Source: a virus
Length of the DNA: 24,316 nt
Virus record (IMG/VR): IMGVR_UViG_3300042905_005541
Location: 1-24,316 of that record
Direction: 5' to 3' (one strand)
Shown here piece after piece: positions 15,583 to 23,364 of the stretch (positions within the stretch are counted from its first letter, which is position 1; each line of letters opens with the position of its first letter). The position numbers and the translations under genes were made by a program. The notes under the pieces were generated by a model that had not been told where the DNA came from, did not search any database, and saw only the letters and a program-made list of their open reading frames with translations.

Positions 15583-15726
15583 AACGTTTAATTTATAATG
15601 AATTTATGAATTAAAAAATTTGCCATGAAAAAATACAGACTAGACTACAGCATTGAATCTGTTTGAGTCTTTAGCGTCAAGCTAGTAATTCCATCAACAA
15701 ATTGTAGCTATTGGAGAAGTTGAATT

Positions 15727-16131
15727 TTGAACCTAGTAAAACCCCACGTATCATCACACTTATCACTTGAGGATCAATATCCTCTAGGAACATGGATTAA
15801 AGACTTATTGTTAATAGACTTTCTGCCACCGTCTTTTCACAAAGTTGTGGCATATAAAGATGGCTATGTAATGGGTGAAAATGAACACGGCGTTTCTAGC
15901 TTGTCTCCATTTGATTGTTGCCAACCCACAGCAACGGAAATTCAGAGGCTAGAATCTAAACCTGCTTTTAGAAAATCAATAGGTGTAGATTCTATTTGCA
16001 CTTATGATAGTGAAAAATATATTGTTGTCGGGTTTGATTGCAAGAAATCAATGATTAGTATTCAAAAACTTAACAACAAATCAGTTAAAGTAAAAAATGT
16101 AAGTATCAAACTTTTACAATTTGAGGATTAA
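15727..16131 (+). CDS. Hypothetical protein
   Basis: A protein of 134 residues. It starts at TTG 15727, since a stop lies directly upstream in frame, no ATG occurs before residue 49, and GGAG sits at a suitable distance. The two beta-rich parts (FHKVVAYKDGYVMGENEHGV and GVDSICTYDSEKYIVVGFDC followed by MISIQKLNNKSVKV) look like a duplicated small beta domain. No family recognised. The next gene begins 40 bp downstream on the same strand. Confidence 0.5.
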   Translation: MNLVKPHVSSHLSLEDQYPLGTWIKDLLLIDFLPPSFHKVVAYKDGYVMGENEHGVSSLSPFDCCQPTATEIQRLESKPAFRKSIGVDSICTYDSEKYIVVGFDCKKSMISIQKLNNKSVKVKNVSIKLLQFED

Positions 16132-16170
16132 CTATGGATTTATTCAAATACTGTAACCAAGAGGCAAATC

Positions 16171-16863
16171 ATGGCAAATACAAATACATCAATTGAATGG
16201 ACAGATAAATCTTGGAATCCTGTAACCGGATGTACTAAGGTTAGTCCAGGCTGCATACATTGCTACGCAGAAACCATTACTAAACGGTTTCGTTTTTCAA
16301 ATGGATTTGATTTAACTTTATATCCAGAAAGGGTAGAACAACCTTTATCGTGGAAAAAGCCATCTAAAATCTTTGTTAATTCAATGAGTGATCTTTTTCA
16401 TGAAGAAGTACCTTTAGACTTTATTCAGTCTGTATTTGAGACAATAAAGAAAACCCCGCAGCACACCTATCAAATTCTCACAAAGCGTCCTGAGAGATTA
16501 GTTGAATTAGCACCACATCTAGAATTTCATAAAAATATCTGGTTAGGTGTATCAGTAGAAAGTCAAGATTATATTTCTCGTATTGATTTACTTCGTCAAG
16601 TTCCTGCAAATGTGCGGTTCCTTTCCTGTGAACCATTGCTAGGCTCATTATATCTTGATTTAACTAATATTGATTGGGTTATTGTCGGTGGTGAATCTGG
16701 TCAAAAACATCGACCAATAAATCTTGATTGGGTTAGAGATATTCGTAACCAATGCCGAAGGGCAAAAGTTGCATTTTTCTTTAAGCAAGTTGGCGGGAAA
16801 ACTTCTAAATCTGGAGGTAATTCATTGGATGGTAAAAAGTATTTGGAGTTTCCAAAATGTTAA
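16171..16863 (+). CDS. Phage Gp37/Gp68 family protein (DUF5131), three-Cys motif
   Basis: A protein of 230 residues, close to the family's usual size. It begins SIEWTDKSWNPVTGCTKVSP with Cys21, Cys28 and Cys31 (C-x6-C-x2-C), then SKIFVNSMSDLFHEEVP, HTYQILTKRPERL, NIWLGVSVESQDY, FLSCEPLLG, DWVIVGGESGQKHRP and AFFFKQVGG. These segments in this order define the family. It has a TIM-barrel-like pattern and a Cys triplet resembling radical-SAM enzymes, but its reaction is unknown. It is followed by two overlapping genes, including an ASCH protein, so the three are translated together. GAGG precedes the ATG. Confidence 0.87.
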   Translation: MANTNTSIEWTDKSWNPVTGCTKVSPGCIHCYAETITKRFRFSNGFDLTLYPERVEQPLSWKKPSKIFVNSMSDLFHEEVPLDFIQSVFETIKKTPQHTYQILTKRPERLVELAPHLEFHKNIWLGVSVESQDYISRIDLLRQVPANVRFLSCEPLLGSLYLDLTNIDWVIVGGESGQKHRPINLDWVRDIRNQCRRAKVAFFFKQVGGKTSKSGGNSLDGKKYLEFPKC

Positions 16864-17195
16864 TGATTAGTGGTTTAGATTTAGAGCTTACTCAACACCT
16901 CAGAAAAGCTAAAGGATATGAATTTAAACTTTTGTTTACTGTGGCAATTGATAAAATTGGTTTATATTTACAGCTTGAAGTACAAGAAAGAGGAAAAGTA
17001 GGCGTTTCAGATATCGCTGATTTTTGTATAACCTATAATCTCACGTTTAAAACTTGTACTGAAATTTTGGAGGAATTGAAAATACTACCAGAAGGTACAT
17101 TTTTGACGCTTAGAAGGGACGGGCTTAATGTTGGGGAAGTTATGTCAGAGGCTAGAAGATTAGCGGAATTGAAGAATGGAAACACTACTGATTAG
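16857..17195 (+). CDS. Hypothetical protein between DUF5131 and ASCH genes
   Basis: A protein of 112 residues starting inside the end of the DUF5131 gene (7-bp overlap) and overlapping the ASCH gene by 20 bp. The middle (VGVSDIADFCITYNLTFKTC, TEILEELKIL) reads as a small helix-turn-helix or winged-helix domain. It is not the usual TcmP partner of three-Cys proteins, which is much longer. The segment recalls the DFADRWNL region of the protein at 6779-7099. Confidence 0.55.
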   Translation: MLMISGLDLELTQHLRKAKGYEFKLLFTVAIDKIGLYLQLEVQERGKVGVSDIADFCITYNLTFKTCTEILEELKILPEGTFLTLRRDGLNVGEVMSEARRLAELKNGNTTD

Positions 17196-17646
17196 TTTAA
17201 AACCACGGCACTGCAAAAATGTCTTCAGCGGTAGGAAGACCATGGAACTGAGAAAGCGATCGCCTAAAAAATACTCCACTTTAGATGGTAGGGTTTATCC
17301 TGAGTTTACTCATATAATGATCTATCAATCAGTGAGGCATGAAATAGTCGGAATGGTTGAGTGTGGAGAGATCATCACAAGATATAAGGATGAGTGGTCG
17401 GCTGATGAAATCAAATCACTTTGCATCAGCAAAGATGAGATAGCCGCATACACAGGCGACAGAAAGGGAGTGGGGATTAATATATTTAATCCTAGATTAT
17501 TCAATACACCAATTCCAATCGGGGTCATGATCAATGATTTTGGCATACATCCACCGCAGCATTTCAAATATTTAAATTCAGATTTATCAAAGAAGTTGAT
17601 CAACTTCGGTCAGATTGGCACTCCTAGGAACGTGGCTAGAATTTAA
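17176..17646 (+). CDS. ASCH-domain protein
   Basis: A protein of 156 residues. Its start LLISLKPRHCKNVFSGRKTM followed by ELRKRSPKK, and later HIMIYQSV and EIVGMVECGEI, fits the ASCH/PUA-like fold, with the basic G-x-K-T-(x)-E-L-R-(K/R)-R signature that binds RNA or modified nucleotides. Phage ASCH proteins are poorly characterised; members act on RNA or as N4-acetylcytidine hydrolases. It overlaps the preceding gene by 20 bp. It is the last gene before the CRISPR-repeat-like unit. Confidence 0.75.
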   Translation: METLLISLKPRHCKNVFSGRKTMELRKRSPKKYSTLDGRVYPEFTHIMIYQSVRHEIVGMVECGEIITRYKDEWSADEIKSLCISKDEIAAYTGDRKGVGINIFNPRLFNTPIPIGVMINDFGIHPPQHFKYLNSDLSKKLINFGQIGTPRNVARI

Positions 17647-17665
17647 CACTTGTTTAACATATTAG

Positions 17666-17702
17666 GTGACAATTACTATTTAAGGTAATTGAGGATTGAA
17701 AC
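17666..17702 (+). CRISPR. Solitary CRISPR-repeat-like unit (possible RNA anti-CRISPR)
   Basis: A single 37-nt sequence that looks like a cyanobacterial CRISPR repeat. It begins GTGAC, contains the inverted pair AATTAC (17671-17676) and GTAATT (17685-17690) around an 8-nt loop, and ends GAGGATTGAAAC. The last 8 nt, ATTGAAAC, are the typical 5' crRNA handle. Length, hairpin and handle all fit. There is no second repeat, no array and no cas gene. It is followed by 28 nt and then the terminator at 17731-17759. It may be transcribed from the ASCH operon, whose stop is 19 bp upstream. Confidence 0.65.
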
Positions 17703-17730
17703 AACGACACGATTGATTAACCACAAAATG

Positions 17731-17759
17731 AAACCCTGTAAGTTAATTACAGGGTTTTT
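17731..17759. terminator. Rho-independent terminator
   Basis: Perfect 11-bp stem AAACCCTGTAA and TTACAGGGTTT around a 5-nt loop, followed by T residues on the + strand and a U-rich tail on the - strand. It ends the + transcript with the CRISPR-like unit and may also serve the convergent gene at 17796-17951. Confidence 0.8.
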
Positions 17760-17795
17760 AATTGCAGCCATGATTAATACTGAGAAACGTAATTA

Positions 17796-17951
17796 TTATT
17801 TTAATGTTGAATCAAAGTTTTTTATGGTTTCCATAAGGATAATTTCTACCGTCTGGGAAACACTTCGTTGTTGATTATCTGCTAATTCCTTAATTCTCTT
17901 AGCTAATTCCTCGGTTGTAACTGTGGTGATACGAGCGGTTTTAGTTTTCAT
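17796..17951 (-). CDS. Small ribbon-helix-helix protein
   Basis: A 51-residue protein from the ATG at 17951. The pattern is strand TARITTVTT, helix EELAKRIKELADNQ, turn and helix RSVSQTVEIILMETIKN, typical of Arc/CopG-like DNA-binding proteins that often repress their own operon. It is divergent from the gene at 18096 and convergent with the + strand ASCH operon. No toxin partner is beside it, which speaks for a regulator rather than an antitoxin. Confidence 0.65.
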   Translation of the reverse strand: MKTKTARITTVTTEELAKRIKELADNQQRSVSQTVEIILMETIKNFDSTLK

Positions 17952-18386: not shown

Positions 18387-18397
18387 ATATAGAAGAA

Positions 18398-18491
18398 GTT
18401 CACGGGAAGTTCGCGGGAGGTTCGCGGGAGGTTCACGGGAAGGTTATGAGTAGTTCACAAGTAGTTCGCGGATAGTTAGCGAAAAGGTTAC
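18398..18491. repeat. Tandem 11-bp iterons upstream of HTH gene
   Basis: About eight consecutive units close to GTTC(A/G)CGGGA(A/G), with starts at 18398, 18409, 18420, 18431, 18443, 18453, 18464 and 18475, then GTTAC directly before the ATG at 18492. The unit length is about one DNA turn, so bound proteins would line up on one face. Units degrade toward the gene. This arrangement is typical of plasmid partition centromeres or iteron origins. Confidence 0.7.
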
Positions 18492-19326: not shown

Positions 19327-20250
19327 ATGATTCACCAAACCGCATTAATTTGGGGCAATCAGGGAGGTGGTAAATCGTGGCTTGCTAGGTTCATAATCCA
19401 GCAAAAACTAAAATCATCAACAGGTTACAGAATTATTGTACTAGACCCTGATTCTAATCGTAGTGAATGGCAGGGTGTGGAATCCTACCATGATCACGAA
19501 TCAATTGAGAAGATGATGAGGTGGTATTATGGCGAATTAATTGCCAGATATAAAGAATTTTCTCAGTCTAATATCCTAGAAAATCAATGGAGAGAAAAAT
19601 TATGGAGTCAAGGTAAAGCAATTACTTTAGTGATAGAGGAGGCCACTACTTACTCATCATTTATCAAAGACCATGAATTTCTTAGCAATTTTGGTAAGTA
19701 TGCTTTGACTAAATCTAGAAAACAAGAAATGCCAGTTTTAATTGTTGCTCATAATAATACACAATCGTGTTTGTTTGGTATTTCTGGACTTCATAATTTA
19801 GTTTCTAAGATGCTACAGATTGAATGTTTGGCTGAGATTAATAAATCATCATTTAAGCCTATCTCTACCGGGAAAGCTAGAGTTAAATTAGATTCTTCAA
19901 GCGAATGGCTGTTAGTTGATTTACCGAAACAGGATAATAAAATTATTAATTTTGGTACACCAATTAAAGAAATTCCCCAAGGCGATAACAATGAATTATT
20001 AATTTCAGAAATTTTACCTGATGGTCTGAAATCAATTCTGAAATTCGCCATTGAGAAACAGAATTGGATATCAATTAGAGAAGTTTTAAGAAAAGATTTT
20101 AGTACATTAAAAAATTATAATTCTCAGAAAGTCAGGGAATTGTTTTTAATACTAAAGTCTAAAGGATACGGAGATTGTAGAACTCTACAGTCTAGTTTCC
20201 AGTTTAAAATTCATTGTGTCGAACCCTTGCGGGATATACCTGACAACTGA
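19327..20250 (+). CDS. P-loop ATPase of HerA/FtsK type
   Basis: A protein of 307 residues. Walker A is GNQGGGKS (residues 10-17), very near the N-terminus; Walker B is ITLVIEEA (99-106), and VLIVAHNN (about residue 140) fits a sensor motif. The segment YRIIVLDPDSNRSEWQGVES after Walker A recalls HerA/FtsK-like DNA translocases and VirD4-type proteins. The C-terminal part (SIREVLRKDFSTLKNYNSQK, VRELFLILKSKGYGD) looks like a winged-helix DNA-binding domain. It lies among membrane protein genes, so a DNA-translocation or partition motor at the membrane is plausible. The terminase at 21431 is a separate packaging ATPase. Confidence 0.72.
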   Translation: MIHQTALIWGNQGGGKSWLARFIIQQKLKSSTGYRIIVLDPDSNRSEWQGVESYHDHESIEKMMRWYYGELIARYKEFSQSNILENQWREKLWSQGKAITLVIEEATTYSSFIKDHEFLSNFGKYALTKSRKQEMPVLIVAHNNTQSCLFGISGLHNLVSKMLQIECLAEINKSSFKPISTGKARVKLDSSSEWLLVDLPKQDNKIINFGTPIKEIPQGDNNELLISEILPDGLKSILKFAIEKQNWISIREVLRKDFSTLKNYNSQKVRELFLILKSKGYGDCRTLQSSFQFKIHCVEPLRDIPDN

Positions 20251-20275
20251 CAACTGACAACTGACAACTGACAAA
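20241..20275. repeat. Heptanucleotide STRR, five TGACAAC units
   Basis: Five head-to-tail copies of TGACAAC (last TGACAAA) overlapping the stop codon of the ATPase gene. Short tandem heptamers of this kind are typical of filamentous, heterocyst-forming cyanobacteria. Confidence 0.75.
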
Positions 20276-20301
20276 AACCATTATCGAGGTAGGTAAGTAA
20301 G

Positions 20302-21162: not shown

Positions 21163-21200
21163 TAAAATATAGTATTGCAAGATAAACGACACAACACCAC

Positions 21201-22788: not shown

Positions 22789-23364
22789 ATGCAGCAAGTT
22801 TTTAATTATGATGTTATTTCTGGCGTTACTTCAGGTGGTGTTGAAAAAAGAATTTTAGTTAATTCTGATGGTTCTATTGCAGTACCAGCAGGACTAGCTT
22901 ATGTTGCATCAACGCTAGTAACAAGACCTGCTAACACTACAGCCTATACAGCTAACGATGTTTATGGTGGTGTATTTGAACTTCAGAATATTGGTGCTAG
23001 TGGTGGATTTATATTTATTGAAAGTATAGATATTATTTTCAATATCACAGCAGTACCAGCAGGTATGAGTGGTTTCACTGTTTATTTGTTTGGCGTTACC
23101 CCACCATCAGCTATAGCTGATAATCTACCATTTTCTATATCTTCTGGAGATAGAGCAAGTATTCTCAATCCCAGAGGTATAGCTTTATCTGCATCATTAG
23201 CTCAAGGTGGTGGTGGTAGTGTAGTTACTGAGGTTAGAAACCTAAACCAACTTTATAAACTAACTGGCACTTCTTTGTTTGGATATGTGGTGACAAGTGG
23301 TGCATTTACTCCGGCTGCAAATAGTGAAAGTTTTACAATTAGAGTTAGGAGTTTTGCACCATGA
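22789..23364 (+). CDS. Virion-like structural protein
   Basis: A protein of 191 residues, beta-rich and Ser/Thr/Gly-rich, without Cys and without membrane segments. The segments VTRPANTTAYTANDVYGGVF, ESIDIIFNITAVPAGMSGFT and SFTIRVRSFAP resemble small phage structural (decoration or adaptor) proteins found in cyanophages near terminase genes. It begins 5 bp after the large terminase gene and overlaps the lectin-fold gene by 4 bp. Which virion part it forms cannot be told from the sequence. Confidence 0.6.
   Translation: MQQVFNYDVISGVTSGGVEKRILVNSDGSIAVPAGLAYVASTLVTRPANTTAYTANDVYGGVFELQNIGASGGFIFIESIDIIFNITAVPAGMSGFTVYLFGVTPPSAIADNLPFSISSGDRASILNPRGIALSASLAQGGGGSVVTEVRNLNQLYKLTGTSLFGYVVTSGAFTPAANSESFTIRVRSFAP

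Follow-up and report, generated by a model that had tools for sequence, protein, structure and literature searches.

What is a single CRISPR repeat doing between two convergent genes of a virus? We examined this for a virus record of 24,316 bases (the window, in what follows) that encodes the large and small subunits of terminase, a portal, a scaffold and a major head protein. The earlier note on this DNA had described a 37-nt unit with 28 nt and then a terminator behind it, and these positions proved exact: the repeat unit, GTGACAATTACTATTTAAGGTAATTGAGGATTGAAAC, occupies 17666..17702 on the + strand, a guide-like pseudo-spacer of 28 nt occupies 17703..17730 on the same strand, and a terminator hairpin begins at 17731.

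Identity and setting of the repeat unit

We scanned 84,980 species genomes with the exact pattern and matched a sole contig, contig 38 of Aphanizomenon flos-aquae FACHB-1287, which gave 56 matches. The unit of the window is identical at 37 out of 37 positions to each of the 56 repeats of the array on that contig, whose spacers measure 31-41 nt (commonest length 35 nt). The comparison with host repeats proposed in the earlier note thus yielded an exact match, and the reading of the unit as a cyanobacterial CRISPR repeat held. Arrays with alleles of the same repeat (a TAAT loop and others) were present in 4 of 198 other relatives. A chance match of the 37-mer is excluded, since the best match in 200 shuffled windows never fell below 11 mismatches, against 0 mismatches at one site in the real window.

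SRUFinder defines a solitary repeat unit by at least 90% identity over at least 90% of a known CRISPR repeat, and by an intergenic position with no full or partial second repeat within 100 bp. The unit shows 100% identity over 37/37 nt and lies between an ORF ending at 17646 and a convergent ORF ending at 17796. As had been claimed, no second copy exists in the window at up to 13 mismatches on either strand, and the 19-nt core of the repeat occurs once even with up to 3 mismatches allowed. A viral CRISPR mini-array comprises at least two repeats around a spacer matching another element; here there is one repeat and the pseudo-spacer is unmatched. The claim that cas genes are lacking also held, in that no cas model matched among the window ORFs scanned; among the same ORFs we found no integrase. 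A mechanical call placed a 61-aa ORF with a TTG start (17689-17874) over the repeat, but this ORF has no support. Rfam gave no match in the window at gathering level and, with relaxed E-values over 17600-17800, returned chance matches and a weak CRISPR-DR9 match at 15 bits. The GenBank phage collection held no relative of the repeat region; its one partial match to the repeat (24 nt, E=0.5) was rejected, as was a match to an 18-nt core in IMG/VR (L050-L052) that fell by chance in a coding gene of one phage lineage.

The upstream neighbour is a 156-aa ORF (17176..17646, + strand) that ends 19 nt 5' of the repeat. It matches phrog_3136 and the PADLOC candidate PDC-M11B, appears ASCH-like by inspection and has no Pfam match. 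We do not claim it as an anti-CRISPR, because it matches only candidate-defence (PDC) families and families of unknown function. The region 16171-17646 encodes this ORF together with a DUF5131 protein that matches the PADLOC candidate defence families PDC-M41B/M30B. The convergent neighbour (17796..17951, - strand) is a small ORF and a candidate ribbon-helix-helix (CopG-like) regulator (Pfam RHH_5, E=0.0011, below the gathering score). Further downstream, 18395-18475 contains intergenic irregular direct repeats of the type GTTCGCGGGAGGTTCACGGGAAG, whose copy pattern differs between the window, two IMG/VR relatives of its lineage (L003 and L004) and L065.

The array of FACHB-1287 adjoins cas7 (TIGR02589 Csd2, E=1e-86), cas8c (TIGR01863, Csd1), cas5c (TIGR01876 Cas5d, above the cut-off) and cas3. 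One further array (L047) is also flanked by a full cas3-cas5c-cas8c-cas7 set, and three others (L046, L048 and L049) by I-C cas homologues; conserved I-C cas homologues were found in four Nostocales genomes besides FACHB-1287. Judged by these array-adjacent genes (Csd2, Csd1, Cas5d and Cas3), the subtype is type I-C and not I-D or III-B, as had been guessed. The enzyme to consider changes with it: Cas6 had been proposed, whereas in type I-C processing is done by Cas5c (PMC5965380, PMC7684278). These systems have no Cas6; cleavage of the repeat by Cas5c (Cas5d) generates a 5' handle of 11 nt (PMC5965380), on which a Cas5c-Cas7 clamp nucleates the I-C Cascade (PMC7684278). In FACHB-1287, an insert of about 180 bp splits cas8c (L020:5500-7329); it keeps the reading frame but brings in several stop codons, so that the I-C system of this strain may be dead. 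The adjacent array of 56 repeats is intact. The exact repeat and I-C cas genes co-occur in this strain, which may or may not be the host of the virus.

TTC is the usual PAM of type I-C systems. We compared 98 spacers from five arrays of the same repeat family with the window, and one of them matched. This spacer, from the type I-C array of the Nostocales locus L049, agrees at 28 of 34 positions with 22934..22967 (- strand), within the phage ORF 22789-23364, and its first 18 nt are identical. None of 2000 shuffled versions of the spacer reached 28 (best 24). The spacers of the FACHB-1287 array did not match the window. Since no TTC motif is present at the flank of the site, we read the match as the trace of an encounter with a relative and not as a sign of immunity at present. 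Together, repeat identity and spacer match appear to tie the phage to Aphanizomenon-like hosts. A short tandem repeat, (CTGACAA)n, at 20240-20277 of the window, of which about 36 nt recur at 100% identity in many genomes of Nostocales, is a further pointer to a Nostocales host.

Hairpin, handle and terminator

The repeat contains a hairpin with an 8 bp stem (17670-17677 paired with 17684-17691; 17670..17691, + strand), supported by the fold and by covariation in nine units. A hairpin AATTAC/GTAATT had been noted before; the hairpin exists, but its stem is longer, CAATTAC(U)/(G)GTAATTG, with 7-8 bp. Compared with 200 dinucleotide shuffles, the 121 nt from 17650 to 17770 have a more stable fold (z -3.4), which consists of the repeat hairpin and the terminator hairpin. 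Exactly 11 nt of the repeat, AGGATTGAAAC (17692..17702, + strand), lie 3' of the stem, which is the expected 5' handle made by Cas5c (PMC5965380). The geometry of hairpin and 11-nt handle, as read from the sequence, fits Cas5c.

The terminator, AAACCCTGTAA-GTTAA-TTACAGGGTTT (17731..17759, + strand), was recognised by sequence, fold and scan, with its hairpin at 17731-17757 and a T tail to 17759. The earlier note called it perfect. An 11-bp stem terminator is indeed present, but just 4 of its pairs are G-C, and the scan assigned its score to the - strand. Lying between convergent genes, it is likely bidirectional and could serve both, and it may exist for the sake of those genes. A possible sigma-70-like promoter, TTGGCA-16-TAGAAT (17615..17642, + strand), was found by a consensus scan at 10 out of 12 positions; it sits within the 3' end of the upstream ORF, with a predicted RNA start at about 17649. 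The number of promoter-like sites in the region equals that of shuffles, and this candidate is weak and no better than chance.

The unit in relatives of the virus and on other elements

Two IMG/VR contigs of the lineage of the window (L003 and L004) carry the unit, with the 114 nt from 17647 to 17760 unchanged and 13-14 differences in the surrounding 2.25 kb. The repeat unit is intergenic and single in all three. So few changes in 2.25 kb do not allow selection on the unit to be demonstrated from these three sequences. In a Nostocales genome (G007), we found a homologue of the left flank, with 70-77% identity over most of the flank and ending at 17600, and on a separate contig a homologue of the right flank (84%), whose homology starts from 17773. 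Neither homologue contains a repeat-like sequence, by which comparison two phage modules are separated by a variable insert, the repeat unit; this genome is not a clean empty site, since the two flanks are on different contigs. No remnant of a longer array, which the earlier note had named as a finding that would speak against its reading, appeared in the relatives examined. In G007 (L063, around 15600-16200), the element related to this phage ends, as read by eye, beside a nifH-like 3' end, which suggests a prophage-like element interrupting a nitrogenase gene.

A relaxed search with the repeat pattern retrieved two other virus contigs, each with one full repeat. The first (L005, 48 kb, with virion structural and head proteins) contains a full repeat, 35 nt, and then a repeat that stops after 23 nt. 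The second (L006, a viral contig of 197 kb) has one repeat, at L006:14136-14172, that ends right at the ATG of a small ORF; at this position, Cas5c cutting could affect the leader of the mRNA of that ORF. In the stretches read, neither contig shares any other DNA with the window. Plasmids matched in 3 out of 72,556 cases: Dolichospermum pUHCC0315c, Anabaena sp. 90 pANA01 and Calothrix NIES-4105 plasmid2. The first two represent one plasmid lineage with a lone repeat and the Calothrix plasmid has two repeats. No annotated feature lies beneath any of the three matches (L078:3001-3037, L079:3001-3037 and L080:2927-3037), and all three plasmids have a strong hairpin 3' of the repeat unit. Among loci homologous to the plasmids, the unit is kept in two genomes (G015 and G006) and absent in a third (G014), together with about 30 nt.

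We aligned nine distinct units, taken from hosts as well as from phages and plasmids, and found all the stem cells paired (72/72). Covariation was seen in 4 cells with changes on both sides, in two pairs, and sliding the stem partner in this alignment abolished the pairing. The plasmid units kept the stem pairing with changed sequences, and the 11-nt handle did not vary in any aligned unit.

Candidate function and competing explanations

We consider it probable that the lone repeat is a type I-C RNA anti-CRISPR (Racr) candidate, whose crRNA-like processed RNA would occupy Cas5c and Cas7 and leave fewer of them for crRNAs that target the phage. Recurrence on unrelated phages and plasmids makes this the likeliest reading. 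Two further points speak for it, namely that no guide target was found and that a spacer of a type I-C array of the same family matches the phage; counted against it were the chance-level promoter, the interrupted cas8c of the strain with the exact repeat, the closeness of L003 and L004 to the window, the missing TTC motif beside the spacer-matched site, and the lack of a detectable I-C cas7 in the two genomes that keep the plasmid unit (G006 and G015), a lack that decides neither for nor against a role during transfer. Transcription, cleavage, sequestration of Cas proteins and inhibition of CRISPR are all steps that we infer. The RNA would arise either at a weak promoter of its own or through transcription running on from the upstream ORF, and would end at the terminator; started at the candidate promoter, it would be about 110 nt long. 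The host Cas5c would recognise the repeat hairpin and cut 3' of it. The upstream cleavage product would retain the repeat hairpin, and the downstream product, of about 66-68 nt, would consist of the 11-nt handle, the 28 nt of guide-like sequence and the 3' hairpin. A native crRNA measures 11 + about 35 + 26 = 72 nt; because the geometry after the cut would be so near to it, we favour a decoy crRNA. Cas5c and Cas7 would then load onto the products in complexes without a target, and the phage-targeting crRNAs would run short of Cas proteins. More tentatively, and with clearly greater doubt than confidence, the unit could be a near-complete crRNA mimic, with the terminator hairpin standing in for the 3' repeat hairpin, that assembles a full, targetless I-C Cascade; similar layouts would then have evolved several times among Nostocales phages and plasmids and form a common element of counter-defence.

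The same predicted product, with a complete 5' handle and a 3' hairpin, would also suit a functional single-repeat guide, whose 28 nt direct the Cascade of the host against a plasmid, a competing phage or one of the host's own genes. Viral mini-arrays directed against related viruses are known (PMC11656645), and the repeat, 35-nt spacer and truncated repeat of L005, as well as the two repeats of the Calothrix plasmid, resemble mini-arrays. The pseudo-spacer, however, had no exact 20-mer match in IMG/VR outside its own lineage, no match at up to 3 mismatches in 60 genomes of Nostocales relatives and no seed match of at least 8 nt in the five I-C cas loci read, and this want of a target argues against a guide role. 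The spacer of L005 likewise had no other exact 19-mer match in IMG/VR, and the segment of 28 nt falls short of the 31-41 nt of the host array. We regard a guide role as unlikely.

A functionless fragment captured from a host array, with recombination leaving one repeat between convergent genes, seems to us unlikely to a similar or slightly greater degree. The sequence is exactly that of the host array, so that a capture could be recent; the flanks have homologues in the related elements of G007, where the unit is missing, and the low divergence between the window and its two close relatives is too little for showing constraint. Against this, at least four further lineages of mobile elements carry such units, single or truncated and intergenic, with stem covariation and an invariant handle, and the plasmid units preserve the pairing despite sequence change.

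A regulatory RNA like CreA, by whose partial complementarity the host Cascade would repress a promoter (e.g. of the cas operon or a toxin) with no DNA cutting, has precedents among repeat-derived RNAs of type I systems (CreTA, PMC8501985), but the five I-C loci again offer no seed, and the sole 8-nt seed match within the window lies at 21185, in the phage's own sequence, and does not reach beyond these 8 nt; we hold this reading to be very improbable. Finally, some viral repeat-like sequences serve for insertion into host CRISPR arrays (PMC10651486, discussion), but use of the repeat as such an integration or recombination site is scarcely credible here, given no integrase among the ORFs scanned and a 56-repeat array uninterrupted by phage sequence, with all its spacers 31-41 nt long.

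Solitary repeat units as anti-CRISPRs are already published, including a tested type I-C one behind a small ORF, and Racrs have been shown in laboratory hosts for types I-C, I-E, I-F and V-A (Camara-Wilpert et al. 2023, PMC10651486). That type I-C unit, RacrIC1, comes from a Bifidobacterium pseudocatenulatum prophage, where it sits 11 nt downstream of an acr gene; tested with phage, it inhibited type I-C (PMC10651486). Like the window unit, RacrIC1 is a lone type I-C repeat in a phage-derived element, with Cas5 as the cognate processing enzyme, and stands just 3' of a small ORF (at 11 nt, as against 19 nt in the window). It differs in having been assayed with phage and in having a known anti-CRISPR, AcrIC5, as its neighbour; the window unit is known from sequence and its neighbouring ORF has no known relation to Acr proteins. 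In further contrast to RacrIC1, the window has a repeat from an A+T-rich, 37-nt family of cyanobacterial repeats, and the unit continues into a terminator hairpin, which would give a crRNA-like product. With RacrIF1 (type I-F, PMC10651486), the window unit shares a lone phage unit, repeat mimicry and the proposed decoy principle. In that case, Cas6f holds the upstream stem-loop product and a Cas6f-Cas7f filament forms without Cas5f and Cas8f (PMC10651486), whereas type I-C lacks Cas6 and starts assembly with Cas5c on the 5' handle; the downstream product of the window unit could therefore matter. The viral mini-arrays of Saccharolobus portogloboviruses (PMC11656645) are similar in having virus-borne repeats identical to those of the host and no cas genes; unlike the window unit, they enclose one or two spacers between their repeats, and the majority of these spacers match related viruses (PMC11656645). 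A cyanophage of Aphanizomenon that encodes a CRISPR array was already known (PMC6293099). The survey in PMC10651486 covered IMG/VR3, and the window contig or its kin may therefore already be listed there.

We found no published test of repeat decoys in a cyanobacterial type I-C system. What is added here is the exact pairing with a cyanobacterial I-C array, the finding that such units recur on phages and plasmids of Nostocales, and a layout resembling a crRNA. If the Racr reading is true, it would extend Racrs to cyanobacteria, through an apparent cyanophage and through phages and plasmids of bloom-forming Nostocales, and it would predict a difference in mechanism for the Cas6-less type I-C, in which the decoy would be a crRNA with a complete handle.
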